The position numbers and the translations under genes were made by a program. A stretch of 64,000 nucleotides of DNA, taken from contig JAFDWF010000126.1 of the NCBI GenBank assembly GCA_018268575.1, positions 1-64,000 on the forward strand, written 5' to 3'. The notes under the pieces were generated by a model. That model made no database searches and was not told the DNA's origin. It worked only from the letters and a program-made list of their open reading frames with translations. Positions 42,306 to 63,096 of the stretch are shown piece after piece. Each line of letters opens with the position of its first letter. The stretch's first letter is position 1. The DNA is from Actinomycetota bacterium. Its GTDB lineage: Bacteria > Actinomycetota > Thermoleophilia > Solirubrobacterales > 70-9.

Positions 42306-42380
42306 CCCTGCCGCTGACTGTAGCGGGCATTTCCCGGAGGACCAAGCGGTTCGGGGGTCTGGTTCCCCGCTGTCGGGGGG

Positions 42381-43316: not shown

Positions 43317-43317
43317 G

Positions 43318-44343
43318 ATGGCACGGGTAATCGTCTACCGGATCCTCGGGTCGATCGCCGCTGTCTTCGGTGCCTCCCTGCTCGCCTTCCTGATCATGCG
43401 GGCGCTGCCGGGCGACCCCGCCCGCGTGATCCTCGGCCCCCTCGCCTCCCCCAAAGCCCTGGTCGAAGTCCGCCACGAGCTCGGCCTCGACAAGAGCCTT
43501 TTCGTCCAGTACTGGGACTACATCACCAGCTTCCTCTCCGGCAACTGGGGCTACTCCTACACTCTGAACGCCCCGGTCAAGTCGCTGTTTGTCGAACGCT
43601 TCCCGGCGACGATCGAACTCGCCCTCTTCTCCTTCATCTTCACCATGGCGACCGCGATCGCTCTCGCCCTGCTCTCCACCTACCGCCGCCGCCCGGTGAC
43701 CGATGGAGTGGTGCGCGGAGCTTCCTACCTCGGCTTCGGCACCCCGCCCTTCTTCCTCGGCGTGCTCCTCTTGATCATCTTCTTCAAGTCCCTGCACTGG
43801 CTGCCGGGACCGGAAGGAAGGCTCGGGATCGGAGCCGAAGCGCCTCCTTCGGCCACCGGCCTCTACCCGATCGACGCGCTCTTGGCCGGCGACCTCTCGA
43901 CCTTCTGGGAATCGATTCGGCACCTGATCCTGCCCTCGATCGCATTGGGGGTGGCCTCCTTCTCCTTCATCGTCCGTCTCCTGCGAGCCAACCTGCTCGA
44001 GGTCTCCCGCGAGCCCTTCCTGATCGTCGCCCGCGGCAAGGGCCTTGCTCGCTGGACCGCCTTCCGCCGCCACGCCCTGCCCAATGCCTTCCTCCCGACC
44101 CTGACCACGGCGGGGTTGGTGCTGGGCGAATTCTTGGCGGGCTCGGTCTTGGTCGAACGCGTCTTCGACTGGCCCGGGATCGGCTCCCTCGTCTACGAAG
44201 CGATCGTCAAGCAGGACTTCGCGATCGTCCAGGCCTTCGTCCTCTTCAGCGCCCTGATGTTCGTCGCGGTCAACCTGATCGTCGACCTCCTCTACGCGGC
44301 GATCGACCCGCGGGTCCGGATCCCGGCGGTGACCGCTACCTGA
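43318..44343 (+). CDS. ABC transporter permease, DppB/OppB type
   Basis: This encodes 341 residues. The N-terminal helix IAAVFGASLLAFLIMRALPGDPA (read in part) is followed by the family segment LGLDKSLFVQYWDYITSFLSG, a WGYSYTLNAPV loop, further helices, and the coupling helix KGLARWTAFRRHALPNAFLP. It forms the channel with the DppC-type subunit and its stop overlaps the ATPase start. The family moves oligopeptides but also many other solutes, so the substrate may be the compound attacked by the Hyu enzymes. Confidence 0.9.
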   Translation: MARVIVYRILGSIAAVFGASLLAFLIMRALPGDPARVILGPLASPKALVEVRHELGLDKSLFVQYWDYITSFLSGNWGYSYTLNAPVKSLFVERFPATIELALFSFIFTMATAIALALLSTYRRRPVTDGVVRGASYLGFGTPPFFLGVLLLIIFFKSLHWLPGPEGRLGIGAEAPPSATGLYPIDALLAGDLSTFWESIRHLILPSIALGVASFSFIVRLLRANLLEVSREPFLIVARGKGLARWTAFRRHALPNAFLPTLTTAGLVLGEFLAGSVLVERVFDWPGIGSLVYEAIVKQDFAIVQAFVLFSALMFVAVNLIVDLLYAAIDPRVRIPAVTAT

Positions 44344-45368
44344 TGGACGCCCTGAACGACAACGGCTCGGTCCTCTCGGTCCGAAACCTCTCCACCGTCT
44401 TCGAGACCGGCAACGCCGCCACCTGCGCGGTGCGGGATGTCTCCTTCGACCTGCGCCCCGACGAACGCCTCGGGATCGTAGGGGAGTCGGGTTCTGGGAA
44501 GTCGGCGATGGCTCTCTCGATCCTCGGCCTGATCGAGCCCCCCGGCCGCGTCTCCGGCGGCGAGATCCTGCTCGGCGGCCGCGATATCTCGAAGCTCTCC
44601 GATCGCCAGATGGGCGCGGTTCGCGGCAAGGAGATCGCCCTCGTCCTTCAAGACCCCTCGACCGCCCTGGATCCGGTGAAGACGATCGGTCGCCAGATCA
44701 TCGAGGTCCTGGCGGCTCATGAACCTGACCTGAAGCGAAAGGCCGCCCGCAAGCGAGCGGTCGAGTTGCTCGAAGACGTCGACATCTCCCACGCCGAGCG
44801 CCGCCTCGACGACTACCCCCACCAATACTCGGGCGGGATGCGCCAGCGGGTCGCGATCGCGATGGCGATCGCCCTGAACCCCAAGGTTCTGATCGCCGAC
44901 GAGCCGACCACCGCGCTCGACGTCACCACCCAGGCCCAGATCCTCTCCCTGATGGACCGCCTGGTCGAGGACCATAACACCGCCGTCATCTTTATCACCC
45001 ACAATCTCGGCGTCGTCTCGGAGTTCTGCGACTCGGTGGCGGTGATGTATACGGGCCGGTTCGTGGAGACCTCGGGGGTCGAACACATCTTCAGTGCTCC
45101 GACCCATCCCTACTCGGAGGCCCTCCTCAACTGCGTCCCGAACCCCGAGAAGCTCGCCCAGGGTCCCCTGCCGGCGATCACCGGCTTCCCGCCGGATCTC
45201 TCCCAGCTTCCTTCTGGCTGCTCGTTTGCACCCCGCTGTCCGGTCGGCAAGGACCTGGCGCAGTGCTATGAGAAAGCGCCCGTCACCCACCGCATCTCAT
45301 GCCCCGACGGCGAGGTTGGGGTGGAGTGCCACTTCGCCGAGGCCCGTGCCCGGGGGGCGAGCACGTGA
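44343..45368 (+). CDS. ABC transporter ATP-binding protein, DppD/OppD type
   Basis: This encodes 341 residues. Walker A GESGSGKSAMAL, Q-loop LVLQDPSTALDPV, signature YSGGMRQRVAIAMAIA, Walker B KVLIADEPTTALDVTTQ and the H-loop FITHNLGV are all intact. The C-terminal oligopeptide extension has the CSFAPRCPVGKDLAQC Cys pattern that binds an iron-sulfur cluster in some homologues. It overlaps the DppF-type gene by four bases and should form a heterodimer with it. Confidence 0.92.
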   Translation: MDALNDNGSVLSVRNLSTVFETGNAATCAVRDVSFDLRPDERLGIVGESGSGKSAMALSILGLIEPPGRVSGGEILLGGRDISKLSDRQMGAVRGKEIALVLQDPSTALDPVKTIGRQIIEVLAAHEPDLKRKAARKRAVELLEDVDISHAERRLDDYPHQYSGGMRQRVAIAMAIALNPKVLIADEPTTALDVTTQAQILSLMDRLVEDHNTAVIFITHNLGVVSEFCDSVAVMYTGRFVETSGVEHIFSAPTHPYSEALLNCVPNPEKLAQGPLPAITGFPPDLSQLPSGCSFAPRCPVGKDLAQCYEKAPVTHRISCPDGEVGVECHFAEARARGAST

Positions 45369-46501
45369 GCAAGCAGGCGGGTCCTGCTCCCGGGAGCGCC
45401 CTGACCAACGGCTCCGACCTTCCGATCCTCCAGGCCGGGGGGATCGAGAAATCCTTCAAGGTGCGCGGCGGCGACCGGCTGAGGGGAAATCCCGAGGTCA
45501 AGGTGCTCGATGACATCTCACTCAGCGTGAAACGCGGCGAGAGCCTCGGTCTGGTCGGGGAGTCTGGTTGCGGCAAGTCCACGCTCGCCCGCTGCCTCCT
45601 GCGCCTCCTCGACCTCTCCGATGGAAGCGTCAAGTTCGACGGCACCGACCTGCAGTCCCTTGGCGCCAAGCAGTTGCGGGCCCTGCGCCGCCGCATGCAG
45701 TTCGTCTTCCAGGACCCCTACGCCTCCCTCGACCCCCGTATGAGCGCGCTGCAGATCGTCGAAGAGCCACTCCAGATCCACGAGGTCGGAGACGCTGAGG
45801 AGCGGAGGCAGAAGGCGCTCGAGATGCTGGTCGAGGTCGGCCTCACCAAGGCCCAGGCGAAAAGGCGGCCCCATGCCTTTTCCGGCGGCCAGCGCCAGCG
45901 GATCGGGATCGCCCGGGCCTTCGTGCTGCATCCCGAGCTCGTGATCCTGGACGAGCCGGTCTCCGCCCTCGACGTCTCGGTCCAGGCGCAGGTGCTCAAC
46001 CTTCTCCGGAGATTGCAGAAGGAGCTCGGCCTCACCTACGTCTTCATCACCCACGACCTCGCCGTCGCCGAGTATTTCTGCGATCGGGTCGCGGTGCTCT
46101 ACGTCGGTCAAGTGATGGAGATCGCCGACCGCAGGGCCCTCTTTCACCAGCCCCTGCACCCCTACTCGGTCTCGCTGCTCTCGGTGGTGCCGGTGCCGGC
46201 GGCGGGAGGGCGCAAGCGGCGCGCTTCCCGGCCTCCCCTGATCGGGGAAGTCGGATCGGTGGTGGAGCGGCCCGCCGGCTGCCCGTTCGAGCCTCGCTGC
46301 CCGGTCGGGCGTGGCAAAGACATCTGCAAGGGCCAGCGCCCGGCGCTCACCAAGCCGGCCGAGGGGCACTGGGTGGCGTGTCACTTCCCGGGTGAGGCGA
46401 CGGCGGCGAGGGGCGTTGCGGAGACCCCTGCCTCCAATCCCAAGACCTCCCCGCAGATCGACCAATCGCCCCGGCAGCTACACGAAGGTGGAGAGCAATG
46501 A
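45365..46501 (+). CDS. ABC transporter ATP-binding protein, DppF/OppF type
   Basis: This encodes 378 residues from the GTG at 45365, which overlaps the DppD stop; the longer frame is not protein-like. Walker A GESGCGKSTLARCLL, Q-loop FVFQDPYASLDPR, signature FSGGQRQRIGIARAF, Walker B LVILDEPVSALDVSVQ and H-loop FITHDLAV are present, with the C-terminal CPFEPRCPVGRGKDIC extension. The final residues are Pro/Ser-rich and probably unstructured. It is followed directly by the binding-protein gene with an ATGA overlap. Confidence 0.92.
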   Translation: MSKQAGPAPGSALTNGSDLPILQAGGIEKSFKVRGGDRLRGNPEVKVLDDISLSVKRGESLGLVGESGCGKSTLARCLLRLLDLSDGSVKFDGTDLQSLGAKQLRALRRRMQFVFQDPYASLDPRMSALQIVEEPLQIHEVGDAEERRQKALEMLVEVGLTKAQAKRRPHAFSGGQRQRIGIARAFVLHPELVILDEPVSALDVSVQAQVLNLLRRLQKELGLTYVFITHDLAVAEYFCDRVAVLYVGQVMEIADRRALFHQPLHPYSVSLLSVVPVPAAGGRKRRASRPPLIGEVGSVVERPAGCPFEPRCPVGRGKDICKGQRPALTKPAEGHWVACHFPGEATAARGVAETPASNPKTSPQIDQSPRQLHEGGEQ

Positions 46502-48213
46502 ACCAAGTAAGACGCAAGGCAAAGTCAAGAGTCGCGTGGACCATTTTAGGAATCGGCGTTCTCGCTGCACTGGTCCTCTCGGCTTGCGGTGGCAGCTCGG
46601 GCGGCAGCAGCTCGGGCGGTGCACCGACCGCCTCCTCCGGTGCGCTTAGCACCTCGAAGAGCAACCCCAACGCGACGATGATCGTCAACGTCGCCACCCC
46701 GATCGCCACCCTGGACCCGACCTTCACCCTGGCCACCCAGGAAGTAGGGCTCGACGGGGCACTCTACTCAACGCTGACCAAATCCAAATACACGGACGGT
46801 CCGGTCCAGGGCACCACGGAAGCAATCCTCGACGTCAACGGCATCGAACCGTACCTCGCCGAATCCTGGAAATACAGCAACGGCAACAAGACTCTGACCT
46901 TTAGGCTCCACCCGAACCTGAAATTCCCGAGCGGCGATCCGCTCAATGCCGAAGCGGTGAAATGGTCGCTGGAACGGACCGTGAAGGCTAAATCAGGCGG
47001 TTACTCGGTGCTCGAAGAAAACGACTTCAAACCGCCGTTGATCAAGTCCATTGAAGCCCCGAACCCGACGACGGTCGTTCTCAACTATAAGCGGCCGGCG
47101 CCGAACCAGCTTCAGGTCCTTTCGACCCCGACGGCTGGCGCGATCTACGACCCGAAAGTGGTCGAAGAAAACGGCGGCCAGAAGGAAGGCACGCCCAACG
47201 AGTACCTCGGCACCCACTCCGCCGGGTACGGCCCCTACCTGCTGAAGAGCTACAAGCCAAACCACGAAATGGTGCTCGAAGCGAACCCCGACTTCTTCGA
47301 ACCCGCGAAAACGAAGAACGTGATCATCAGGTTCGTTCCCGATAACGAAACGCTACTTCTGGATGCGCAGTCGGGCCAGGCCGATGTCACCCTGGGCCTC
47401 TCGTTCCAGGCAGCCAAGAGCCTCGAAGGGAACGGCTGTTGTACCGTCGCCGCGTTCAAGTCGCGACAGGCACAGACGCTCAACTTTCCAATCAACGAAC
47501 TGGAACCGTTCAAGAGCAACGCCCTGCCGGAGTTCAAGAACCAGAAGTTCCGCCAGGCGCTCGCGACCGCGTTCCCCTACGAAGCCATCCTAGAAAAAGT
47601 CGCCTACGGCTACGGCCAAACTTACAACGGCGAGTGGATGCCGGCGTTCTCCTGGTACGACCCGAAAATCGGCGCGCCGCTCGAAACCAACATCGAAAAA
47701 GCCAAGGAACTCATGGCCGAATCCGGTGTGAAGACCCCGGTCAGCTTCCCTATCTATGTCTCCCAGGGCGCGATCGTCGAAAAAGAAATCGCCACCGCGG
47801 CCGCTGGAGCATGGGAAGAACTGGGTGTGAATGCGACGGTTCAGACGACCTCGCCTGCCAAATTCTTGGAAGTCGTCTACGAAACTCATGACGGCGTCAC
47901 CGTGTTCATCGACGGCCCCCAGGTCATCGCCCCGGACTACTACTGGTCCTACGATCTCCAGTGCCCGCCGAACAACGCGTTCAACGACACGGATGTGTGC
48001 GTGAGGAAATCCGACGCAGCGATGAAGAAGATCCCGTACACGACGAAGGAACCACAGCGTCAGGAACTCCTCAACGAAGCCAACCTGGGATGGATCGATG
48101 CGACCCCGCGCATCTGGGTCTACAACCAGGACGCGGTCGCCGTACTCGGCAAAGACATGACCGAATACGCCTCCAGCGACCTGCCGGAAGTGAGGCTCTG
48201 GGCGAAGGGCTGA
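46498..48213 (+). CDS. ABC transporter substrate-binding lipoprotein, family 5 (peptide/nickel type)
   Basis: This encodes 571 residues with a lipoprotein signal (ILGIGVLAALVLSAC, acylated Cys30), a Ser/Gly-rich linker and the SBP_bac_5 fold: ATLDPTFTLATQEVGLDGAL, PYLAESWKYSNGNKTLTFRL, FPSGDPLNAEAVKWSLERT and GYGPYLLKSYKPNHEMVLEA. Such proteins bind peptides and also many unrelated solutes. It is the last gene of the importer operon, ahead of a strong terminator. Glutamate codons are nearly all GAA, in contrast to GAG in the upstream ATPase genes, which suggests high expression. Confidence 0.9.
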   Translation: MNQVRRKAKSRVAWTILGIGVLAALVLSACGGSSGGSSSGGAPTASSGALSTSKSNPNATMIVNVATPIATLDPTFTLATQEVGLDGALYSTLTKSKYTDGPVQGTTEAILDVNGIEPYLAESWKYSNGNKTLTFRLHPNLKFPSGDPLNAEAVKWSLERTVKAKSGGYSVLEENDFKPPLIKSIEAPNPTTVVLNYKRPAPNQLQVLSTPTAGAIYDPKVVEENGGQKEGTPNEYLGTHSAGYGPYLLKSYKPNHEMVLEANPDFFEPAKTKNVIIRFVPDNETLLLDAQSGQADVTLGLSFQAAKSLEGNGCCTVAAFKSRQAQTLNFPINELEPFKSNALPEFKNQKFRQALATAFPYEAILEKVAYGYGQTYNGEWMPAFSWYDPKIGAPLETNIEKAKELMAESGVKTPVSFPIYVSQGAIVEKEIATAAAGAWEELGVNATVQTTSPAKFLEVVYETHDGVTVFIDGPQVIAPDYYWSYDLQCPPNNAFNDTDVCVRKSDAAMKKIPYTTKEPQRQELLNEANLGWIDATPRIWVYNQDAVAVLGKDMTEYASSDLPEVRLWAKG

Positions 48214-50191: not shown

Positions 50192-51016
50192 TCAGCCGTC
50201 GACCTCCACGACCGGGTTGCGCAGCGTGCCGATCCCTTCCACTTCCACCTCGACCAGGTCGCCGTCCCGCAGCGAGCGCACCGGCTGCATGAACTCTCCA
50301 CAGCCCCAAGGCGTGCCGGTGAGGACGACGTCGCCGGGCTCGAGGGTGAACGACCTCGAGCAGAAGGCGAGCAGCTCGGCGACGCTGAAGATCATCAGCT
50401 CGGTCGTCGAGTCCTGCACAGTCTCGCCGTTGACGCGCGTCCGCAGGGCCAGCTTCTTGGGGTCGGCGACCTCGTCGGCGGTGACGATCAGCGGCCCCAG
50501 CGGACAGAAGGTATCGAGGCTCTTCCCGCGCACCCACTGACCGTCGGCGAACTGGAGGTCGCGCGCCGAGACGTCGTTGGCCACGGTGTAGCCGAAGACT
50601 CGATCGAGCGCCTCGGCGGCGGGCACGTCGCGCATCTCGGCGCCCACCACCACCGCCAGCTCGACCTCCCAGTCGACCCTCTGGGTCAGGGAGCGGTCGA
50701 TCGTGATCGGTTCGCCGTCGCCGACGATGCTGGTCGTGAACTTGGTGAAGACGAGCGGCGCGGTGGGTGCGTCCATCCCGGTCTCGCGGACGTGGTCGGC
50801 GTAGTTGAGGCCGATGGCGACGATCTTGCCGGGACGCAGGGGCGCGATCAGGCGGGCGTCCGGCAGCGGACCCGCCGCGGCGGCGTCCGGGAGCGTGCCC
50901 GCCGCGATCAGGTCCCGAACCGTCTCCTCCCCACCGACGTCGAGCGGTACGAGCCCTCCGTCGCCGAGCCGGACCGGGACCGGGATGCCGTCCACGAGGG
51001 CGGTGCCGAGGCGCAT
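50192..51016 (-). CDS. Fumarylacetoacetate hydrolase (FAH)-family protein, second copy
   Basis: This encodes 274 residues. The same motifs as the gene at 32697 appear: GKIVAIGLNYADHVRETGMD, VDWEVELAVVVGAEM, FGYTVANDVSARDLQF, QWVRGKSLDTFCPLGP and LEPGDVVLTGTPWGCGEFM. The two are paralogues with nearly the same boundaries. This copy starts the 3' end of a minus-strand operon with the epimerase, 14 bases away. Metal ligands appear intact. The substrate could be a beta-keto or 2-hydroxy-dienoate-type acid produced by the fusion aldolase's pathway; this is speculation. Confidence 0.87.
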   Translation of the reverse strand: MRLGTALVDGIPVPVRLGDGGLVPLDVGGEETVRDLIAAGTLPDAAAAGPLPDARLIAPLRPGKIVAIGLNYADHVRETGMDAPTAPLVFTKFTTSIVGDGEPITIDRSLTQRVDWEVELAVVVGAEMRDVPAAEALDRVFGYTVANDVSARDLQFADGQWVRGKSLDTFCPLGPLIVTADEVADPKKLALRTRVNGETVQDSTTELMIFSVAELLAFCSRSFTLEPGDVVLTGTPWGCGEFMQPVRSLRDGDLVEVEVEGIGTLRNPVVEVDG

Positions 51017-51030
51017 GATCCTCCCGTCGA

Positions 51031-51975
51031 TCAGCTCGGGGCGCTGATCTGGTCGGCGGCGTAGAGCCGGCGGAAGTGGGCGACGGTGTCGGCGACGCCG
51101 ACGCTCAACGGGGTGGGGGAGACGGCGGCGCCGAACGGCGAGCCCGGGTCGGGGGCGACCTCGGCGGGGAAGGGGAGTGGCGGCCCGACGAAGGAGACCT
51201 CGGCCGCGGGCGCCGCGTCCTCGATCGCGGCGACGATCGTCGCCACCTCGACGGTGTCCCCGGGCAGTTCGAAGACGCCGGCGCCGTCGTACTCGCGGGC
51301 GCGGGTGGCGGCGATGAAGGCGGCGGCGACGTCGGGCGCGTATTGCATCGTCAGGCGCCCGGAGAAGGCGATCTCATAGGCCGTGCCGGTGGCGGCGGCG
51401 AGCATCGCGACCGTGGGATCCGAGGTGATGCCCTGGTCGCGGCCGGGACCGTAGACGGTGTGGGGTCGCAGGCCGATGCTGGCCAGGCCCCGCTCCTGCC
51501 GGTAGACCGCGGCGACCCCCTCGCAGGCGAGCTTGTAGGCGCCGTAGACGGTCGAGGGGTGGGGCTCGCCCGGTTGGGAGGCGGCGGCGATCGAGGAGGC
51601 GTAGACGAACGGGCCGATCTCGGCGCCGCGATCGGCGATCGCCTCCAGCAGGTTGACCGTCCCGACCACGTTGACCGCGGCGCCCAGCGGTGGGTTGGCG
51701 CGGCAGAACGGCGCCTGCAGCGCGGCGAGATGGATCACGGCGCCGACCTCGCCCTCCTCGAGGGTGCGGCGCAGGGCCGCGAGGTCGGTGACGTCGGCCT
51801 CGATCCAGGTGACCCGCCCGAGCTCCTCGGGATCGACGAGGAGCCTGAGGCGGCGGTCGTCGCGGTGCAGGTCGAGGGCCAGGACGGGCACTTCTTCGGC
51901 GAGCAGCTGCCGGATCGTCCAGGCGCCGATGCAGCCGCCGGCGCCGGTAACCAGGGTTGGGGTCTTCGTCTCCAT
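51031..51975 (-). CDS. NAD-dependent epimerase/dehydratase (extended SDR)
   Basis: This encodes 314 residues. The extended SDR features are TPTLVTGAGGCIGAWTIRQL (NAD site), IEADVTDLAALRRTL, VIHLAALQAPFCRANP, Ser in VYASSIAAASQPGE and YGAYKLACEGV (YxxxK). It probably acts on a nucleotide sugar or on a sugar acid or lactone. Neighbouring lutABC and FAH genes hint at sugar-acid or hydroxy-acid breakdown. The start has a purine-rich site upstream. It is transcribed with the genes on either side. Confidence 0.85.
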   Translation of the reverse strand: METKTPTLVTGAGGCIGAWTIRQLLAEEVPVLALDLHRDDRRLRLLVDPEELGRVTWIEADVTDLAALRRTLEEGEVGAVIHLAALQAPFCRANPPLGAAVNVVGTVNLLEAIADRGAEIGPFVYASSIAAASQPGEPHPSTVYGAYKLACEGVAAVYRQERGLASIGLRPHTVYGPGRDQGITSDPTVAMLAAATGTAYEIAFSGRLTMQYAPDVAAAFIAATRAREYDGAGVFELPGDTVEVATIVAAIEDAAPAAEVSFVGPPLPFPAEVAPDPGSPFGAAVSPTPLSVGVADTVAHFRRLYAADQISAPS

Positions 51976-51985
51976 GTCTCGTTTC

Positions 51986-52663
51986 CTAGGTGCTGGCGGT
52001 TGGCAGGGGTTGGTTTGAGCTTCTGAGCAGGACGATCACCAGGCGTCGCGGGCCGTGGACGCCCTCGACCCGCTCGAGCTCGATGTCGGAGGTCGCCGAC
52101 GGGCCCGAGATCAGGGTCAGCGGCCGGCCCTGCGCCGCCGCCGGACCGAGGGCCGCGATCAGCTCGGGGATGTCGGCGACGACCGCCTCGGCCTCGAGCA
52201 GGCAGAGGTGCAGGTCGGGGATCAGGGAGAGGGCCCGCCGGCCCTGGCCCGGCCCGTGGTCGAGCGCCACGGTCCCGGTCTCCGCCGCCGCCCAGGCGGC
52301 CCCGGTGAGGGCGCCGTCGACGGCGTCGAGCTGCGCCGGCGACAGCGGCGGCTCGTCGCTCAGCAGCTCGACTCCCGGCGGGCGCCGGCCCTCCGGGAGC
52401 TCGGCGGGGCAGGCGAGGCGCCTTGCCCCCAGCTCGGCGCAGAGCGCGGCAAGCTCCGCTGCCACCGCGTCGGGCGTGCAGGTGCGCACCGTCGCCCCGT
52501 GCTCGGTGACCCGGGCGACGAAGCGGGCGAGGAGCGGCGGCGAGCCCGGCGCGGGGGAGCGCGATGCCGATCGGCCGGCGGGCTCGGGGCCACCGGTCGG
52601 GCGCGGGGCCTCGCCGAGCGCGGCGCGCACCCGCTCGAGCACCGCCTCACGCCCGGTGCTCAT
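51986..52663 (-). CDS. lutC: Lactate utilisation protein LutC (LUD domain)
   Basis: This encodes 225 residues of the LUD fold: FVARVTEHGATVRTCTPDAV, ELLSDEPPLSPAQLDAVDGA, LTGAAWAAAETGTVALDHGP and GPSATSDIELERVEGVHGP, the last with the family GPS-x-TADIE-type motif. LutC works with LutA and LutB in the iron-sulfur-dependent oxidation of L-lactate to pyruvate. It overlaps lutB by 17 bases, consistent with co-translation. An Ala/Pro/Arg-rich N-terminal stretch (about 17-45) looks unstructured. Confidence 0.87.
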   Translation of the reverse strand: MSTGREAVLERVRAALGEAPRPTGGPEPAGRSASRSPAPGSPPLLARFVARVTEHGATVRTCTPDAVAAELAALCAELGARRLACPAELPEGRRPPGVELLSDEPPLSPAQLDAVDGALTGAAWAAAETGTVALDHGPGQGRRALSLIPDLHLCLLEAEAVVADIPELIAALGPAAAQGRPLTLISGPSATSDIELERVEGVHGPRRLVIVLLRSSNQPLPTAST

Positions 52664-54020
52664 GCCACCACCCCCTGAAGCTCTGCGCCGGCGCCTGCGG
52701 CAGCTCGCGGCTCACGGTCCAGGCGGCAAGCGGGCCGAGGAGCCGCTGGCCGGGGCCGAGCTCGCCGTGGCGGGCGGCTCGCTGGGCGGCTTCGTAGCCG
52801 CGCCGGGAGAGCAATATCCGCGCCAGCGCCCGCATCGCCGCGCCCTCTCCCCGCGGTGCCTGCCCGCCCGCCACGACCCGAGCGCGCAGGTGGACGAGCA
52901 CGGCGGGGATGTCGATCTTCACCGGGCAGACCTCGTAGCAGGCGCCGCACAGGGTGGAGGCCGCCGGCAGGCTCGCGTGCTCGCGCATGCCGCTCAGCTG
53001 CGGCGAGAGGATCGCGCCGATCGGGCCCGGGTAGGTCGACTCGTAGGCATGGCCGCCGGTCCGCTCGTAGACGGGACAGACGTTGAGGCAGGCGGAGCAG
53101 CGGATGCAGCGCAGGGACTGGCGCCCGACCGCGTCGGCGAGGACGTCGGTGCGACCGTTGTCGAGCAGGACCAGGTGGAAGTCGCGCGGGCCGTCGCCGT
53201 CCTCGCGGGCGCCGGTCCACAGCGAGGTGTAGGGGTTCATCCGCTCGCCGGTCGCCGAGCGGGCCAGCAACGGCAGCATCGTCGCCAGGTCGGCGAACCG
53301 CGGCACCACCTTCTCGATCCCCATCAGGGTGATCAGGGTGTGGGGGAGGGTCGTGCACATCCGCCCGTTTCCCTCCGACTCGACCAGGCAGACGGCGCCC
53401 GTCTCGGCGACCGCGAAGTTGGCGCCGGAGATGCCGACGCCGACGCTGAGGAAGCGCTCGCGCAGGTGCCGCCGCGCCGCCGCCGCGAGCTCGCGCGGCT
53501 CGGGCGAGAGCCCGCGCTCGCCGAGCTTGGCTTCGAAGAGGTCGCGGATCTCGACCCGGTTGCGGTGGATCGCGGGGACGAGGATGTGGGAGGGGCGGTC
53601 GTCGCCGAGCTGCACGATCAGCTCGGCGAGGTCGGTCTCGTGAGCGGTGATCCCGGCCGCGGCGAGCGCCTCGTCGAGGCCGATCTCCTCGCTCGCCATC
53701 GACTTCACCTTGATCGCCTCGGTGCTCCCGGCGGCGCGCACGAGGCGGGCGATGATCGCCGTCGCGGCGGCGGCGTCGGGCGCCCAGTGGACGCTCCCTC
53801 CGGCGGCTTGGACCGCGGCCTCGAGCCGTTCCAGCTGGCGATCGAGGTCGAGCAGGGCGGCGTCCTTGATCGCGGCGCCGGCCTCGCGCTGCCGCTCCCA
53901 GTCGGCCACCTCGGAGACCACCGCCGCCCGCCGCGCCCGGATCGTCCGCGTCGCTCGGGCCAGGTTGTGGCGCAGCTGGGGGTTCGCGAGCGCGCTCTTC
54001 GCCGCGGTCGGGAAGCTCAT
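52647..54020 (-). CDS. lutB: Lactate utilisation protein LutB (iron-sulfur LUD protein)
   Basis: This encodes 457 residues. The N-terminal LUD domain has VKSMASEEIGLDEALAAAGI, VSVGVGISGANFAVAETGAV-type segments and ICLVESEGNGR-like strands. Two 4Fe-4S cluster motifs, CIRCSACLNVCPVYERTGG and LCGACYEVCPVKIDIP, lie near residues 310-375. The family forms the membrane-independent LutABC lactate oxidase complex. The gene overlaps both lutA and lutC, giving order lutA-lutB-lutC on the minus strand. Confidence 0.9.
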   Translation of the reverse strand: MSFPTAAKSALANPQLRHNLARATRTIRARRAAVVSEVADWERQREAGAAIKDAALLDLDRQLERLEAAVQAAGGSVHWAPDAAAATAIIARLVRAAGSTEAIKVKSMASEEIGLDEALAAAGITAHETDLAELIVQLGDDRPSHILVPAIHRNRVEIRDLFEAKLGERGLSPEPRELAAAARRHLRERFLSVGVGISGANFAVAETGAVCLVESEGNGRMCTTLPHTLITLMGIEKVVPRFADLATMLPLLARSATGERMNPYTSLWTGAREDGDGPRDFHLVLLDNGRTDVLADAVGRQSLRCIRCSACLNVCPVYERTGGHAYESTYPGPIGAILSPQLSGMREHASLPAASTLCGACYEVCPVKIDIPAVLVHLRARVVAGGQAPRGEGAAMRALARILLSRRGYEAAQRAARHGELGPGQRLLGPLAAWTVSRELPQAPAQSFRGWWHEHRA

Positions 54021-54706
54021 CCCTGGGCCGCCAGGATCTCGGCCAGGTGGACCGTCCGCACGCCGGCGCGGAGCCGGCGCAGGCCGCCGCCGATATGCAT
54101 CAGGCAGGAGTTGTCGACCGCCGTGCAGACTTCGGCGCCGGAGTTGAGCAGGTGCCCGATCTTGTCGGTCAGCATCGCGGTGGAGACGTCGGCGTTCTTG
54201 ACCGCGAAGGTGCCGCCGAAGCCGCAGCAGGAATCGGCCTCCGCGAGCTCGAGCAGGTCGATCTCGCGGACCTTGCCCAGCAGCCTCGAAGGGGCGTCGC
54301 CGAGCTGCAGCGACCGCAGCGAGTGGCAGGTCGGGTGGTAGGCGACGCTGTGCGGGAAGCGCGCCCCGACGTCCTCGACCCCGAGCTCGGAGACCAGGAA
54401 GCTGCAGAGATCATGCACCGGCGGGGCCTCGCCGACCAGCTCCGGGTAGTGCTCGCGCATCGTCGCCGCGCAGGAGGCCGAGGGGGTGACGATCGCCTCG
54501 GCGCCCGCCAGCGCACGCAGTTGGCGCCGGGCCAGCCGCGCCGCCTCCGCGGGGTAGCCGGTGTTGAGGTGCATCTGCCCGCAGCAGGTCTGCTCGCGCG
54601 GGAAGCTGACCGTGCAGCCGACCCGCTCGAGGACTTCGACCGTGGCCCGCCCGGTGGCGGGGAAGAAGGTGTCGTTGAGGCAGGTGATGAAGAGCGCTAC
54701 GCGCAC
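54017..54706 (-). CDS. lutA: Lactate utilisation protein LutA (CCG-domain Fe-S oxidoreductase)
   Basis: This encodes 229 residues. It has two Cys-Cys-Gly domains with REQTCCGQMHLNTGYP and ADSCCGFGGTFAVKNADVS, as in GlpC/LutA subunits, plus VALFITCLNDTFFPATGRAT at the start. The CCG cysteines bind iron-sulfur clusters in electron transfer from L-lactate or a related 2-hydroxy acid. Its stop overlaps lutB by four bases, and the fusion regulator gene ends 18 bases upstream. That regulator may control this operon. Confidence 0.88.
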   Translation of the reverse strand: MRVALFITCLNDTFFPATGRATVEVLERVGCTVSFPREQTCCGQMHLNTGYPAEAARLARRQLRALAGAEAIVTPSASCAATMREHYPELVGEAPPVHDLCSFLVSELGVEDVGARFPHSVAYHPTCHSLRSLQLGDAPSRLLGKVREIDLLELAEADSCCGFGGTFAVKNADVSTAMLTDKIGHLLNSGAEVCTAVDNSCLMHIGGGLRRLRAGVRTVHLAEILAAQG

Positions 54707-54724: not shown

Positions 54725-56146
54725 TCAGGCCGGCCCGGCACCGTTGGACCGAGCCTCGGCGAGTTCGTCGCCGAGCGCGCGCGCGTAGAGGTTGATGTCG
54801 GTGCCGACCGCAATCATCCGGAAGCCGCGCTCGCGCCGGCTCTGCGCGGCGGCGACCGAGCCGCAGAGGATCCCGGCCGTGATCCCGGCCGCCTCGCAGG
54901 CGGCGACCACCCGCTCCTCGGCCTCGCGCAGGCGGGGGTCGTCGATCGCCCCCGGGATGCCCATCGAGATCGAGAGGTCGTACTCGCCGACCCAGAGCAC
55001 GTCGACGCCGGGGGTGGCCGCGATCGCCTCGACGTTCTCGAGGCCCTCGGCCGTCTCGATGAAGAGGATCACCATCGTCTCCGCGTCCGCCGCCGCCGTC
55101 GCCGTGGGGACGCCGACGGCGATCTGGTCGGGATAGATCAGCCCGAAGCCGCGGCCACCCTCCGGTCCGCCGAAGCGCGCCGCTTCGACCACCCGCGCGG
55201 CCTCCTCGGCATCGCCGACCATCGGGACCATGACGCCGGCGGCGCCGGCGTCGAGCACGGTCGAGACCTGGTGGCGGGCGGAGCCCTGGACGCGAACGAT
55301 CGGCGCCACCGGCTCCGCCCGCGCGGTCGCCAGCAGCGGCAGCACCTCGGGCACGCCCCAGCCGGTGTGCTCGAGGTCGATGACGACGAAGTCGGCGCCG
55401 GCTTCGGCGAGGATGCGCGGCAGGCCGTAGGTGTTGAACTCGAACAGCATCGTCCCGAGGACCACCTCGCCGGCCTGCAGTCGGGCGCGGAGCCCGCTTC
55501 CGGCGGCGCCCGAGCTGGTTGCGGCCGGCGCCGCCGACGCTCCCTGCATCGGCGCGGAGGCCGGGCGCGCGGCCGGGTACTGCTGGACGGAGACCCCCCG
55601 GGCCGAGCCGCCGACCGCCTGGTAATGGTGGGGGCGGTCGGCGCTGAAGGTGAGCATGTCGCCGGCCTCGAGCCGGATCGAGTCGTGCCCGGCGAGGACT
55701 TCGATCTCCCCTTCCATCGCCAGGAAGTGCTCGATCACGCCCGGGCCGTGCGGCTCGGAGTCGCGCCGGGCGCCGTCGGTCATCGTCATCAGGTAGATCT
55801 CGATCTGGCCGTTCATCTGCCAGCCCGCCATCAGCCGCGCCTCGTAGTTGGGCTGCTCGAAGACCAAGGCGGCGCGCTCGTCGTGGCGCACGACGTGGAA
55901 GGACTCCTCCACCCCGTCGGAGTCGAAGAGGAAGCCGAGCGGGATATTGAGCGCGCTCGCCAACGCCCAGAGGGTGTCGAGCGAGGGGTTGCCGTTGTGG
56001 CGCTCGAGCTGGGAGACCGTCGACTTGGAGACGTTCGCCGCCCGCGCGACCGCGGAGACCGACATGCCGCGACGCTGGCGCCACTCGCGCAGCTTCGAGC
56101 CCGCCAGCTTCGATGGATGAGGGCCCGACCCTCCCCGACTGTTCAT
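54725..56146 (-). CDS. XRE regulator-cupin fused to HpcH/HpaI-type aldolase
   Basis: This encodes 473 residues with three modules. Residues about 13-72 form an XRE helix-turn-helix (LREWRQRRGMSVSAVARAAN, VSKSTVSQLERHNGNPSLDT). Residues about 85-190 form a cupin sensor domain (PHGPGVIEHFLAMEGEIEVL, LEAGDMLTFSADRPHHYQAV). After an Ala/Pro/Ser linker (about 191-216), residues about 217-465 form an HpcH/HpaI aldolase with VVIDLEHTGWG, APIVRVQGS, GVMVPMVGD, FIETAEGLEN and VLWVGEYDLSISMG. Each half alone is a normal-sized protein. The linker shows no stop or start that would split it. A regulator joined to a pathway enzyme suggests direct metabolite sensing. Confidence 0.85.
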   Translation of the reverse strand: MNSRGGSGPHPSKLAGSKLREWRQRRGMSVSAVARAANVSKSTVSQLERHNGNPSLDTLWALASALNIPLGFLFDSDGVEESFHVVRHDERAALVFEQPNYEARLMAGWQMNGQIEIYLMTMTDGARRDSEPHGPGVIEHFLAMEGEIEVLAGHDSIRLEAGDMLTFSADRPHHYQAVGGSARGVSVQQYPAARPASAPMQGASAAPAATSSGAAGSGLRARLQAGEVVLGTMLFEFNTYGLPRILAEAGADFVVIDLEHTGWGVPEVLPLLATARAEPVAPIVRVQGSARHQVSTVLDAGAAGVMVPMVGDAEEAARVVEAARFGGPEGGRGFGLIYPDQIAVGVPTATAAADAETMVILFIETAEGLENVEAIAATPGVDVLWVGEYDLSISMGIPGAIDDPRLREAEERVVAACEAAGITAGILCGSVAAAQSRRERGFRMIAVGTDINLYARALGDELAEARSNGAGPA

Positions 56147-56173
56147 TCAGCTCCCATGCCCTTTCTCCGGTGC

Positions 56174-56198
56174 ATCGTTCGATATTTAGATCAACGAT
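56174..56198. promoter_or_regulatory. Near-palindrome in the divergent intergenic region, candidate operator
   Basis: ATCGTT and AACGAT arms with inner GAT/ATC pairs span 25 bases upstream of the fusion regulator start (56146). A related half-site, TCGTTCGATCTAGA, lies at 56311-56324, just downstream of the opposite promoter. XRE-cupin regulators often bind such sites near their own gene. Confidence 0.4.
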
Positions 56199-56281
56199 CG
56201 CTCTGTCATTTAACCAGACCGCCCAACGGCACGTCAATTACGGCATGTGTTCACTGAATAACCCCTAGCGGGTCGCCAATC

Positions 56282-56310
56282 TTGACACAACGGCGCAATC
56301 TGGCTACGGT
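56282..56310 (+). promoter_or_regulatory. Sigma-70-type promoter for the solute-binding-protein operon
   Basis: TTGACA at 56282-56287 and TACGGT at 56305-56310 are separated by 17 bases. The predicted leader runs about 50 bases to an AGGAGGAG ribosome site and a GTG start at 56370. The -10 box is weak (TAnnnT), consistent with activation or regulation. Confidence 0.5.
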
Positions 56311-56369
56311 TCGTTCGATCTAGAAAACGCTTTTGGGTTGAAGTGCTTTCGAATCATTAGGAGGAGAAT

Positions 56370-58007
56370 GTGAAGTCTGATACCAACGGGACGGGGGCCG
56401 GGGTGCCCGACGGTCCGTTCTCTCGTCTCACCAGGCGCGACGTCCTGCGCGCGGGCGCGGCGGGCGCGACGGCGATCTCGGTCGGCGGCCTGCTCGCCGC
56501 CTGCGGATCGTCCTCCACCACCACTTCCTCGGGCTCGGGTGCGGGTGCGGCGAACGCGGGCAAGCCGCGGCGCGGCGGCAGCCTCACCGCGGCGATGGTC
56601 GGCGGCACCCCGAACGACACGCTCGAGGCCGACGCCGCCTACAACTTCCCCGAGCCGATGCGCAACTTCGCGCTCTACAACGGACTCGTCGCCCTCGATC
56701 CCGACGGCAAGTCGATCTCCAACGTGCTTGCCGAAGAGATCAGCGCGAGCAAGGACTCGATGACCTGGACGATCCGCCTCAAACCGGAAATCGAGTTCCA
56801 CGACGGCAAGCCGCTGACCGCCAAGGACGTCCTCTTCACGCTCAACCGGATCGCCGACCCGAAGCTGCTGCTGACCGGAATCACCGCGGTCGCGCCGATC
56901 GACCTCAAGGCCGCCAAGGTGGTCGACCCGTTGACCCTGCGACTGCCGATGAAGACGCCGTACGCGACCTTCGTCGAACAGCTCTGCAACAACTACTACT
57001 TCGGGATCGTGCCGGAAGGCTATGACCCGAACAAGCCGATCGGCACCGGACCGTTCAAGTTCGAGTCGTTCACGGCCGGCGAACAGAGCGTCTTCGCCCG
57101 CAACCCGAACTACTTCAAAAGCGGGCTGCCCTACCTCGACAAGCTGACGATCATCGATTCCTTCCAGGAACCGACGGCGGCGTTGAACGCGCTCAAATCG
57201 GGCACCGTCGACGTCTTCGTCAACGCGCCGCCCGACCTCAACAGCCAGGTGGCGGGGGACAGCACGCTGCGCACCCTGATCTCCGCACCGGGCCTCTGGG
57301 TGCCGTTCACGATGCGTGCCGACGTGAAGCCGTTCGACGACGAACGCGTGCGACAGGCGTTCCGCCTGATGGTCAACCGCCAGCAGATGCTGGCCTCCTC
57401 GGTCGGCGGGATGGGCGTCGTCGCCAACGACGTCTACGGCCTCCACGACCCCTGCTACGACAGCTCGCTGACGCGCGAACAGGACATCGAACAGGCGAAG
57501 GCGCTGCTCAAGCAGGCGGGGCAGGAAAACCTCACGGTCGAACTCGTCACCGCGCCGATCGCGGCCGGGGCTACCGAGTCCGCCCAGGTCCTCGTCCAGC
57601 AGGCAAAGGAAGCCGGGGTGACGGTGAACCTGCGCAACACCAACGTCACCACGTTCTTCACCAACTACCTCAAATGGACGTTCGGCCAGGACTTCCTCGC
57701 CTACGACCCGATCCTCAACATGGCCGCCCAGACCTCGATCCCGGGTGCGCCCTTCGGCACCACCCATTTCGACGACGGGGAATTCAACAAGCTCTACGAA
57801 CAGGCGAACCGGACCGCCAGCACCTCCGGGCGTTGCAACCTGAAGAAAGAGATGCAGAAAATCCTCTTCGACCGCGGCGCCTACATCATCCCTTCGTTCA
57901 ACCGGACCCTCGACATCATGTCGACCCAGGTCAACGGGTTCTACGAAAACGCCGGTACCGGGATGCCGCTCGGCAACGGTGACTGGGAGAACGCGTGGAT
58001 CGCCTGA
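56370..58007 (+). CDS. ABC transporter substrate-binding protein, family 5, Tat-exported lipoprotein
   Basis: This encodes 545 residues from a GTG behind TTAGGAGGAGAAT. The twin-arginine motif TRRDVLRAG (RR at 22-23) is followed by a hydrophobic stretch and lipobox LLAAC (Cys45), so export is by Tat with lipidation. The SBP_bac_5 fold follows (VLAEEISASKDSMTWTIRLK, FHDGKPLTAKDVLFTLNRI, PIGTGPFKFESFTAGEQSVF). Use of Tat suggests cytoplasmic folding before export. Glutamate is mostly GAA. It heads the operon containing a ureohydrolase and amidase, and a permease gene follows at 63096. Confidence 0.9.
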   Translation: MKSDTNGTGAGVPDGPFSRLTRRDVLRAGAAGATAISVGGLLAACGSSSTTTSSGSGAGAANAGKPRRGGSLTAAMVGGTPNDTLEADAAYNFPEPMRNFALYNGLVALDPDGKSISNVLAEEISASKDSMTWTIRLKPEIEFHDGKPLTAKDVLFTLNRIADPKLLLTGITAVAPIDLKAAKVVDPLTLRLPMKTPYATFVEQLCNNYYFGIVPEGYDPNKPIGTGPFKFESFTAGEQSVFARNPNYFKSGLPYLDKLTIIDSFQEPTAALNALKSGTVDVFVNAPPDLNSQVAGDSTLRTLISAPGLWVPFTMRADVKPFDDERVRQAFRLMVNRQQMLASSVGGMGVVANDVYGLHDPCYDSSLTREQDIEQAKALLKQAGQENLTVELVTAPIAAGATESAQVLVQQAKEAGVTVNLRNTNVTTFFTNYLKWTFGQDFLAYDPILNMAAQTSIPGAPFGTTHFDDGEFNKLYEQANRTASTSGRCNLKKEMQKILFDRGAYIIPSFNRTLDIMSTQVNGFYENAGTGMPLGNGDWENAWIA

Positions 58008-58008
58008 G

Positions 58009-58953
58009 ATGAGCGGCCCGCCCCTCTTCCCGCTGGTCGGCGTGCCCACCTTCCTGCGGGCGCCCTACCAGCCGGACCTCGACCAGCTCGACGCGACGAT
58101 CGCCGTCGTCGGCGTGCCCAGCGACGAGGGCTCGCCCTTCCTGCCGGGCACGCGGCTGGCGCCGCGCAGCCTCCGCGAACACTCGATGCGCCTCTGCGCG
58201 GGCGGGGCCGGGTACTACGACGCGGGTCTGCGGCGGACCTTCCTCGAGCGCGAGATGAGGGCGGGCCGGATCGTCGACGTGGGCGACGCGGCGATTCTCC
58301 CCACCAACGCCCCGGCGAGCTTCGACAACGTCACCGCGAAGGTGCGCGGCATCCTCGAGCGGGGGGCGCTGCCGGTCGCGCTCGGTGGCGACCATGCGAC
58401 CACCTGGCCGGTCGTCCGCGCCTTCGCGGGCGAGCCGATGCACGTGGTCCAGTTCGATGCCCACCTCGACTTCGAGCCCTTCGAACACGGCCTGGAATGC
58501 ACCAACGGGCACGGCTTCCGTCACATCGCCGCCAGCCCCGACGTCGCCGGCCTGACCCAGGTCGGCATCCGCGGCATCCGCAACGGCCGCCGGCAGCTGG
58601 ACGAAGCGCTCGAGGCCGGCAACCGGGTGGTGCTGATCGACGAGTTCCGCGAGGGCGGCCTGGCGGAGGCGCTGGCGGCGATCCCGGCCGGGGAGCGCTG
58701 CTACGTCAGCATCGATATCGATGTCCTCGACCTCTCGCTGGTGCCGGGCTGCGTCTCGGCGGAGCCGGACGGGATGTCCTACCCGGAGCTGCGCGATGCG
58801 CTCGGCAGCGTCGCCCGGCACCTGCGGGTGGTCGGGTTCGACCTCTGTGAGGTGAACCCCATGCTGGACGTCGGCACCGGCGTCACCTCGTACTTGGGAG
58901 CGCACACGATCGTCGAGTTTCTCGGGCGCATCTGCGCCGAAGCGGAAAACTGA
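58009..58953 (+). CDS. Ureohydrolase (arginase/agmatinase superfamily)
   Basis: This encodes 314 residues, starting one base after the binding-protein stop. Both Mn clusters' ligands are present: ALGGDHATTWPV (His), QFDAHLDFEP (Asp-His-Asp) and CYVSIDIDVLDLSLVPGC (Asp-x-Asp). The usual DP after the last ligand pair is DL, and the typical GTPEPGG loop is replaced by VSAEPDGMSY, so the substrate pocket is atypical. The family hydrolyses guanidino groups to urea and an amine, as in agmatine, guanidinobutyrate or guanidine. No urease gene is in the window. Confidence 0.88.
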   Translation: MSGPPLFPLVGVPTFLRAPYQPDLDQLDATIAVVGVPSDEGSPFLPGTRLAPRSLREHSMRLCAGGAGYYDAGLRRTFLEREMRAGRIVDVGDAAILPTNAPASFDNVTAKVRGILERGALPVALGGDHATTWPVVRAFAGEPMHVVQFDAHLDFEPFEHGLECTNGHGFRHIAASPDVAGLTQVGIRGIRNGRRQLDEALEAGNRVVLIDEFREGGLAEALAAIPAGERCYVSIDIDVLDLSLVPGCVSAEPDGMSYPELRDALGSVARHLRVVGFDLCEVNPMLDVGTGVTSYLGAHTIVEFLGRICAEAEN

Positions 58954-58965
58954 GAGGAGTCAACG

Positions 58966-59991
58966 ATGCGACATGGCGACATCAGCTCGAGCCCCGACTG
59001 CGTCGGGGTGGCCGTGGTCAACTACGAGATGCCGCGCCTGCACACCCGGGCGGAAGTCGAGGCCAACTGCCGTCAGATCGCGGCCATGATCGCCGGCATC
59101 AAGGCGGGGCTGCCGGGCCTCGACCTGGTGATCTTCCCCGAGTACAGCACCCACGGGATCATGTACGACCGCGAGGAGATGTTCGAGAACGCGGCGACCG
59201 TGCCGGGGTTCGAGACCGAGATCTTCTCCGCCGCCTGCCGCGAGGCCGGGGTCTGGGGCGTCTTCTCGCTGACCGGCGAGCGCCACGAGGAGCACCCGGA
59301 CAAGAACCCGTACAACACCCTGATGCTGATCGACGACGAGGGGGAGATCGTCCAGCGCTACCGCAAGATCCTCCCCTGGGCGCCGATCGAGGCCTGGTAC
59401 CCCGGCGGCGGCACGACGGTGACCGAGGGCCCGAAGGGCCTGCAGCTGAGCCTGATCGTCTGCGACGACGGCAACTACCCCGAGATCTGGCGCGACTGCG
59501 TGATGAAGGGGGCGGAGCTGGTCGTGCGTTGCCAGGGCTACATGTACCCGGCCAAGGACCAGCAGATCATGGTCTCGCGGGCGATGGCGTGGATGAACAA
59601 CACCTACGTCGCGGTGGCCAACGCGGCCGGCTTCGACGGCGTCTACTCCTATTTCGGCCACTCGGCGATCATCGGCTTCGACGGCCGCACCCTGGCCGAA
59701 TGCGAGACCGAGGCCAACGGGGTCCAGTACGCCGAGCTGTCGGTCTCGTTGATCCGCGACGCACGCGCCAACTGGCAGTCGCAGAACCACCTGTTCAAGC
59801 TCCTGCACCGCGGCTACACGGGCGTGGTCCAGTCGGGCGACGGCGAGAAAGGCGTCGCCGAGTGCCCGTTCGAGTTCTACCGCCAGTGGGTCGAGGACCC
59901 GCGGGGCGCCCAGCGCCAGGTCGAGGCGCTGACCCGCTCGACCCTGGGGACGCCAGACGCGCCGGTCGCGGCGCTGCCGGGGCGCTGCTGA
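58966..59991 (+). CDS. amiE: Aliphatic amidase AmiE
   Basis: This encodes 341 residues starting [20 protein letters not shown]. It is very close to the classical Pseudomonas amidase along its full length. The nitrilase-superfamily triad is intact: Glu in [10 protein letters not shown], Lys in [11 protein letters not shown] and Cys in [13 protein letters not shown]. Segments such as [19 protein letters not shown] and [14 protein letters not shown] are the AmiE type. It converts short aliphatic amides (acetamide, propionamide) to acid and ammonia in the cytoplasm. It lies between a ureohydrolase and an LLM enzyme, overlapping the latter by one base. Confidence 0.95.
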
Positions 59992-61719: not shown

Positions 61720-63096
61720 GTGGCGTCGTCGCCGGTCCTCGGGTCGCTCGCCGATGCCTACGCGCGCGCCAACCCGCGCTCGCATGAGCTCTACAAGCGT
61801 CAGCAGGAGGTGGTCCCGCTCGGGATCACCCACTCGACCCGCCTGTTCGAGCCCTTCCCGCTCTTCATCCGCGCCTGTCGCGGCGCCCGCAAGTGGGACG
61901 TCGACGGGCACGAGTACCTCGATTACTGGCTCGGCCACGGGTCCTTCCTGCTCGGCCATGCCCACCCCGTGGTCAACGAGGCGATCGCCGCCCAGCTCCC
62001 CGACGGGATGCACGCCGGCGGCGAGACCGAGATCGGCCTGCGCTGGGCGGAGCTGGTCCGCGACCTGGTGCCCGCGGCGGAGTCGGTCCGGTTCACCTCC
62101 TCCGGCGGCGAGGCGACCCAGCTGGCCCTCCGCGTCGCCCGCGCCTACACCGGCCGGACCAAGGCGATCAAGTTCCGCCACCACTTCCACGGCTGGCACG
62201 ACGCGGTCGCCCCCGGCGTCTACCCGCCCTGGGAGGTGCCGATGGCGCCGGGCATCGCCCCCGGCGCGCTGGCCGACACGATCGTCCTGCCCGGCAACGA
62301 GATCGGCGCCGTGCGCGCGGCGCTGGCGGGCGGCGACGTGGCCCTGGTCATCCTCGAGCCGGGCGGCGGCTTCTCCGACACGGTCCCGACCGACTTCGGC
62401 TACCTCGCCGAGCTGCGCCAGCTGACCCGCGAAGCGGGGGCGATCCTGATCTTCGATGAGGTCGTGACAGGGTTCCGCTACGCGGTCGGCGGCGTGCAGG
62501 AGCTCACCGGCGTCACCCCCGACCTGGCGACGCTCGGCAAGGTGGTCGGCGGCGGCCTCCCGGCCGGGGCGCTGGTCGGCCGGGCCGAGGTGATGGCGGT
62601 GCTCGACACGACCGGGGACCGCGGGCGCGACCGGCGTGAGCGCATCCCCCAGTACGGGACCTGGAACGCGATGCCGGTGGTCGCCGCGGCCGGGGTCGCG
62701 GCGCTCGGCCTGATCGCCGACGGGGAGCCGACGCGAATCGCCAACGAACGCGCGGACCAGCTCCGCGACGGCCTCAACGAGGTCTTCGCCGCCGCCGGCC
62801 TGGCGGCGGTCGCCTACGGGCGCAGCTCGATCTGGAAGACCTACCTCGGCGAGCGCCCGCGGCTGCTCGACGGCGATCTCTCGGCGGCGGCCGCCGACGG
62901 CGAACGGCTGGCTCAGGGGTGGGGAGCGCTGGGCGAGCCCCTGCGCCAGGCGCTGCTGCTGGAGGGGGTGGACGTGATGCGCACCCAGGGGTTCACCTCG
63001 GCCGTGCACACGGAGGCCGAGATCGACGCCACGGTCGAGGCCTTCGCCCGGGCGATCGCACGGCTGCGGGCCGCGGGCCTGCTCGGGGAGCGGTGA
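61720..63096 (+). CDS. Class III aminotransferase (glutamate-1-semialdehyde-aminomutase-like)
   Basis: This encodes 458 residues from a GTG. Class III motifs: WDVDGHEYLDYWLGHGSFLLGH, VRFTSSGGEATQLALRVARA, GRTKAIKFRHHFHGWHD, LIFDEVVTGFRYAVGG (PLP Asp) and LATLGKVVGGGLPAGALVG (PLP Lys). The HHFHGWHD and GMHAGGETE segments resemble glutamate-1-semialdehyde aminomutase relatives. Sitting after a ureohydrolase, it could transaminate the amine freed from a guanidino compound. It overlaps the permease gene by one base. Confidence 0.87.
   Translation: MASSPVLGSLADAYARANPRSHELYKRQQEVVPLGITHSTRLFEPFPLFIRACRGARKWDVDGHEYLDYWLGHGSFLLGHAHPVVNEAIAAQLPDGMHAGGETEIGLRWAELVRDLVPAAESVRFTSSGGEATQLALRVARAYTGRTKAIKFRHHFHGWHDAVAPGVYPPWEVPMAPGIAPGALADTIVLPGNEIGAVRAALAGGDVALVILEPGGGFSDTVPTDFGYLAELRQLTREAGAILIFDEVVTGFRYAVGGVQELTGVTPDLATLGKVVGGGLPAGALVGRAEVMAVLDTTGDRGRDRRERIPQYGTWNAMPVVAAAGVAALGLIADGEPTRIANERADQLRDGLNEVFAAAGLAAVAYGRSSIWKTYLGERPRLLDGDLSAAAADGERLAQGWGALGEPLRQALLLEGVDVMRTQGFTSAVHTEAEIDATVEAFARAIARLRAAGLLGER

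Follow-up and report, generated by a model that had tools for sequence, protein, structure and literature searches.

An open reading frame joining an XRE-cupin regulator to an HpcH/HpaI aldolase beside two operator-like sites

The gene at 54725..56146 (minus strand) of the window, that is, the whole stretch of 64,000 nucleotides analyzed here, is a real in-frame fusion of a regulator and an enzyme, made of ordinary parts in an unusual combination. Its 473-codon frame runs from the ATG at 56146 to the stop at 54725 without internal stops and encodes, in this order, an XRE helix-turn-helix (HTH), a cupin, a linker and an HpcH/HpaI class II aldolase. The best explanation, with a probability of roughly 0.6, is a bifunctional protein, in which an autoregulating repressor of the XRE-cupin type, acting on the lut operon that it belongs to and on the divergent operon, carries an active aldolase end. 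It is supported by the frame, the domains, the catalytic residues, the paired upstream sites and the recurrence of the site near relatives; the single copy of the fusion in a fragmented assembly, the low confidence of the structural model and the fact that the halves are not neighbors in any of the relatives examined count against it.

The N-terminal half (residues 1–191; 55574..56146, minus strand) has Pfam matches to HTH_3 at residues 19–73 (5.7e-15) and to Cupin_2 at 119–179 (3.6e-6; 27.0 bits, which is 0.2 under the cut-off of 27.2). It is followed by a linker rich in Ala, Pro, Ser and Gly (residues ~192–218; 55493..55573, minus strand) and by the aldolase half (residues 219–458; 54773..55492, minus strand), in which HpcH_HpaI matches residues 244–456 over profile positions 15–220 of 221 (4.1e-35, 121.5 bits). 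Sequence matches in the PDB cover both sides of the linker: the XRE-cupin regulator 1y9q aligns with residues 16–193, spanning the HTH and the cupin, and HpaI/YfaU/GarL-type aldolases align with residues ~217–467. The earlier note had described a continuous frame over a DNA-binding domain, a cupin and a complete aldolase, with an Ala/Pro/Ser linker and a junction near 55,550; these matches bear out that description with exact coordinates and place the linker at ~55,493–55,573. Because the aldolase domain is attached to both usual domains, the protein is a variant architecture and not a plain member of the XRE-cupin family.

An AlphaFold2 model built on three sequences had a mean pLDDT of 61, that is, low confidence, and served solely for domain boundaries and fold matches. 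At this confidence the HTH is helical and the cupin rich in beta structure, residues 193–217 are disordered (pLDDT below 50) and an aldolase fold follows; Foldseek returned 4mf4, 3qz6 and 1y9q among the top matches. The XRE-cupin half of the model also matches HppE, the fosfomycin epoxidase, so enzymes, too, exist with this HTH-cupin fold.

Several observations bear on whether the junction is genuine. Since GC3 stays between 0.88 and 0.97 in all segments (0.91 in the HTH, 0.97 in the cupin, 0.88 in the linker itself, 0.93 and 0.97 in two aldolase segments), one coding frame crosses the junction. Enumeration of single-base indels in codons 191–218 yielded a stop before codon 240 in only 2 of 420 cases, and no stop is present over the linker in any forward frame. 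Stops created by one substitution either truncate the conserved end of the cupin (188–190) or fall after ATG200. The only candidate aldolase starts past the cupin end are ATG200 and GTG228; the latter lies inside the domain, and a separate internal start at the former was rejected, as no Shine-Dalgarno sequence precedes it. With so few indels producing a stop close by, and with no convincing separate start for the aldolase, a simple frameshift, base or gene-calling error at the linker is unlikely on these sequence features. The frameshift at the linker that the earlier note had named as possible counter-evidence was thus not indicated, and both a frameshift and a missed stop were rejected as origins of the long frame.

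A merger of two genes by an assembly, binning or sequencing error is very unlikely as a whole. The source genome is a draft assembly of 226 contigs (87% complete) and a second copy of the fusion was found nowhere, as would be expected of such an error, but the join is in frame within an operon-like run, with even GC3 and an 18-bp gap to lutA, and no single change yields a sensible stop together with a start. The upstream sites and the downstream FAH gene, moreover, go with the regulator and the aldolase halves, respectively. A larger assembly join is improbable, since it would have had to fall in frame inside a densely packed operon.

In the aldolase half, alignments show that all catalytic and metal-binding residues of the HpaI type are kept (D257, E259, H260, R285, E364 and D390), and these are invariant or nearly so among relatives. 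Key residues of HpaI are His45 and Arg70 in Escherichia coli and Glu46, His47, Glu151 and Asp177 in A. baumannii (PMC8560999); D257, E259 and H260 align with the acidic/His pair, R285 with the arginine, and E364 and D390 with the metal ligands. The aldolase half is apparently intact and most likely active, with a predicted specificity of the 2-keto-3-deoxy-acid type. Its score of 134 bits, compared with 369 for HpaI, is far under all NCBIfam equivalog cut-offs, and the usually conserved YPP before the G-x-R-G loop is replaced by FGGP. This replacement, together with the precedent of BzdR (PMC3602430), would fit a catalytically inactive domain that serves only as a ligand-binding module, like the shikimate-kinase-like domain of that regulator; with the catalytic and metal-binding residues all retained, we regard such a loss of activity as highly improbable. 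The same genome encodes two further HpcH/HpaI-family proteins.

In the regulator half, the cupin residues H133, E139 and H173 are retained, while HTH positions V33, N38 and H50 deviate from residues that are invariant or nearly so in the relatives; these deviations could weaken DNA binding. XRE-cupin regulators mostly repress adjacent enzyme and transporter genes from palindromic sites, some are autoregulated, and the known signals in Pseudomonas are dipeptides and polyamines (PMC7901475). By analogy, a nitrogen-compound signal would fit the content of the divergent operon, which encodes a family 5 solute-binding protein of the peptide type (SBP_bac_5; 56370..58007), a member of the agmatinase/ureohydrolase family (57979..58953) and an aliphatic amidase (58966..59991; NF009802, 668 bits), all on the plus strand.

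On the minus strand the fusion gene is followed by genes for a LutA-type protein with two CCG domains (54017..54706, beginning 18 bp beyond the stop codon of the fusion gene), a LutB-type protein (52647..54020), a LutC-type protein with a LUD domain (51986..52663), an NAD-dependent epimerase/dehydratase family protein (SDR; 51031..51975) and an FAH-family hydrolase (50192..51016). In three close standalone relatives of the aldolase half an FAH hydrolase, 46–50% identical to that of the window, is encoded within a few genes, and several standalone relatives adjoin genes for D-2-hydroxyacid dehydrogenases. From family knowledge it is a reasonable inference that the pathway yields pyruvate and lactate from 2-keto-3-deoxy acids and that LutABC oxidizes the lactate.

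Within the 223-bp divergent promoter region (56147–56369), each of the two flanking start codons is preceded by a CGTTCGATMT site. The site proximal to the fusion gene, CGTTCGATAT at 56176, is the core of a 25-bp imperfect dyad, ATCGTTcGATatttagATCAACGAT (56174..56198), about 28 bp before the start codon; the other, CGTTCGATCTAGAAAACG (56312..56329), contains CGTTCGATCT at 56312 and lies about 40 bp before the start codon of the binding-protein gene. The second half-site is weak in these dyads, and a distance of 136 bp, or about 12.95 turns at 10.5 bp, separates the two sites. With 21 occurrences of the motif CGTTCGMTMT in the 4.3-Mb genome, about 0.001 are expected per 223 bp, whereas two are observed in the divergent region. 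No sigma-70 promoters or terminators were found near the fusion gene.

Related sequences recur near standalone XRE-cupin genes. The window-derived 8-mer CGTTCGAT is present upstream of three of the 15 such genes, a count reached in 5 of 2,000 shuffles, and is absent from all 198 other pieces taken from these loci. The relaxed core GTTCGMTAT, picked after inspecting the relatives, is found upstream of six of the 15 (shuffle mean 0.05), and these counts are not fully independent, because some of the upstream regions share a common ancestry (L072/L073 and L079/L080). Both sites in the divergent region are likely operators, one for the fusion's own operon and one for the divergent operon, and control of 56147–56369 by the fusion protein, as suggested in the earlier note, is likely given the presence of the two sites there. 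In L079, a dyad CGTTCGC-TATG-GCGAACG, at position 234 in the 272-bp piece upstream of the standalone XRE-cupin gene, overlaps the probable start codon of that gene and may show the operator in its clearest form.

A second fusion, sought as a full-length match, was not found in genome searches numbering about 1,850 with repeats, which covered samples of the own family, order, class and phylum as well as two other families and another class; since the E-value limits of the family-to-phylum searches were 1e-20 to 1e-45, a distant fusion might escape them. There was likewise none in the sample of the same genus and family, none in 72,556 plasmids, and in 50,697 phage records only partial matches but no full-length one. 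A viral origin was rejected, viral contigs holding no relative and phage records only those partial matches. Fusion candidates with long open frames (L022, L024, L027, L030, L032 and others) do not carry both halves, and no report of this architecture was found in the literature searched.

Both halves have relatives at 47–51% identity, every one of them a separate gene. Closest to the N-terminal half is the standalone regulator L010 from Leifsonia (49%), relatives in the same order being standalone and about 36–42% identical; closest to the C-terminal half are the standalone aldolases G681 (50%), L009 from a Gemmatimonadetes assembly (48%), G361 and others. In phylogenetic trees the aldolase half falls among standalone proteins in a 14-row clade with 100/99 support, and the regulator half falls among standalone proteins near L010 without firm placement. 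XRE-cupin and aldolase genes never occurred together in 17 larger loci of relatives. The rarity claimed before thus held in the search for the same domain order, which gave no other fusion in the genomes, plasmids and phage records searched. The earlier note had also named homologs always encoded as two genes as evidence against the fusion: all relatives found are indeed separate genes, but this does not make the fusion false. It follows instead that the fusion is derived and, as far as seen, unique, so that it appears to be a derived singleton.

The reading that we prefer, a bifunctional repressor and aldolase, can be outlined as follows. The XRE-cupin end would act as a local autoregulating repressor binding CGTTCGMTMT-type sites before its own operon (lutABC, SDR and FAH) and before the divergent operon (transporter, agmatinase and amidase), and binding of a pathway metabolite by the cupin would release it. 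The C-terminal end would be a metal-dependent pyruvate aldolase with a 2-keto-3-deoxy or hydroxy-keto acid as its substrate, and its products could feed LutABC. The fused chain would fix the ratio of regulator to enzyme at 1:1 and, if the aldolase hexamerizes as in its family, would gather several DNA-binding domains, which could bridge the two sites lying about 13 helical turns apart and in phase.

Whether the two halves influence each other is a separate question. They may be uncoupled, the fusion being a chance and possibly short-lived merger of a regulator with the first gene of an operon, in which each half acts like its standalone relatives. We give this possibility somewhat less than an even chance. 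It agrees with the existence of standalone relatives for both halves, with the lack of a counterpart in the same genus and family sample and in the other genomes searched, and with the flexible, low-complexity linker. Key residues, however, are kept in both halves despite about 50% divergence from relatives; selection thus at least tolerates the fusion and possibly favors it.

Alternatively, the protein may be a trigger enzyme, in which pyruvate, a 2-keto-3-deoxy acid or a metal in the aldolase site alters the oligomer or the linker geometry and hence DNA binding, so that the flux through the aldolase would set the expression of both operons. The presence of two operator-like sites beside a gene whose product combines an intact aldolase with an HTH is consistent with this, and bifunctional regulators made of an XRE HTH and an enzyme domain have a precedent in BzdR and the Q1 chimera (PMC3602430). 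We nevertheless consider it doubtful: a sensor is already present in the cupin, which is the usual sensor of XRE-cupin regulators and could do all the sensing; the long linker, predicted to be disordered, favors independent domains; the halves are not neighbors in any related locus examined; and among the BzdR chimeras it was the inactive one that responded to inducers in vivo, whereas the active one did not (PMC3602430). A two-input switch, in which occupancy of a hexameric aldolase core by keto acid or pyruvate sets the bridging by HTH pairs and thereby both divergent operons, is unlikely.

The order of HTH and cupin is common to the fusion, 1y9q and the Pseudomonas regulators PsdR, PauR and ErfA. 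As in XRE-cupin regulators generally, the gene adjoins enzyme and transporter genes, here with a candidate site before the gene itself; characterized members, however, have two domains only, whereas the fusion adds a C-terminal extension of 280 residues with a complete aldolase. With HpaI, YfaU and GarL (4mf4, 2v5j) it shares the full-length domain and all catalytic and metal-binding residues and, with several HpcH/HpaI relatives, a nearby FAH hydrolase, but those enzymes lack the DNA-binding and cupin module that precedes the aldolase here. PutA, NadR and BirA are trigger enzymes with their own DNA-binding domains and demonstrated coupling; like the fusion they combine catalysis and DNA binding in one chain, but their folds are different and coupling in the fusion is only possible. 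By domain analogy the nearest precedent is BzdR, in which an XRE HTH is likewise linked to an enzyme fold; it has no cupin, and its enzyme domain, shikimate-kinase-like and not an aldolase, has lost activity, whereas the active-site residues of the fusion are intact.

Few natural fusions join a complete regulator to an apparently active enzyme, and such proteins bear on how regulators evolve from enzymes; in the study of BzdR the regulator-enzyme intermediate had to be constructed by hand (PMC3602430). The fusion appears to be a naturally occurring example in which neither end is damaged and the probable operators are identified, which makes coupling directly testable; if the halves are uncoupled, it is a curiosity of gene fusion.

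Elsewhere in the window, ~8 kb away, 42381–48213 encodes a complete ABC transporter of the oligopeptide type, with two permeases, two ATPases and a binding protein. The SBP_bac_5 protein at 56370–58007 is another binding protein from that family, apparently an orphan, and a 785-aa regulator with GAF and PucR-type HTH domains (40281–42638, minus strand) is divergent from the transporter genes. The standalone XRE-cupin genes L052, L053 and L054, from the same order, are divergent from a class-III aminotransferase gene with hyuA/hyuB (hydantoinase/oxoprolinase) nearby; similar aminotransferase and hyu genes are present elsewhere in the window (34690–39879 and 61720–63096), not adjoining the fusion.
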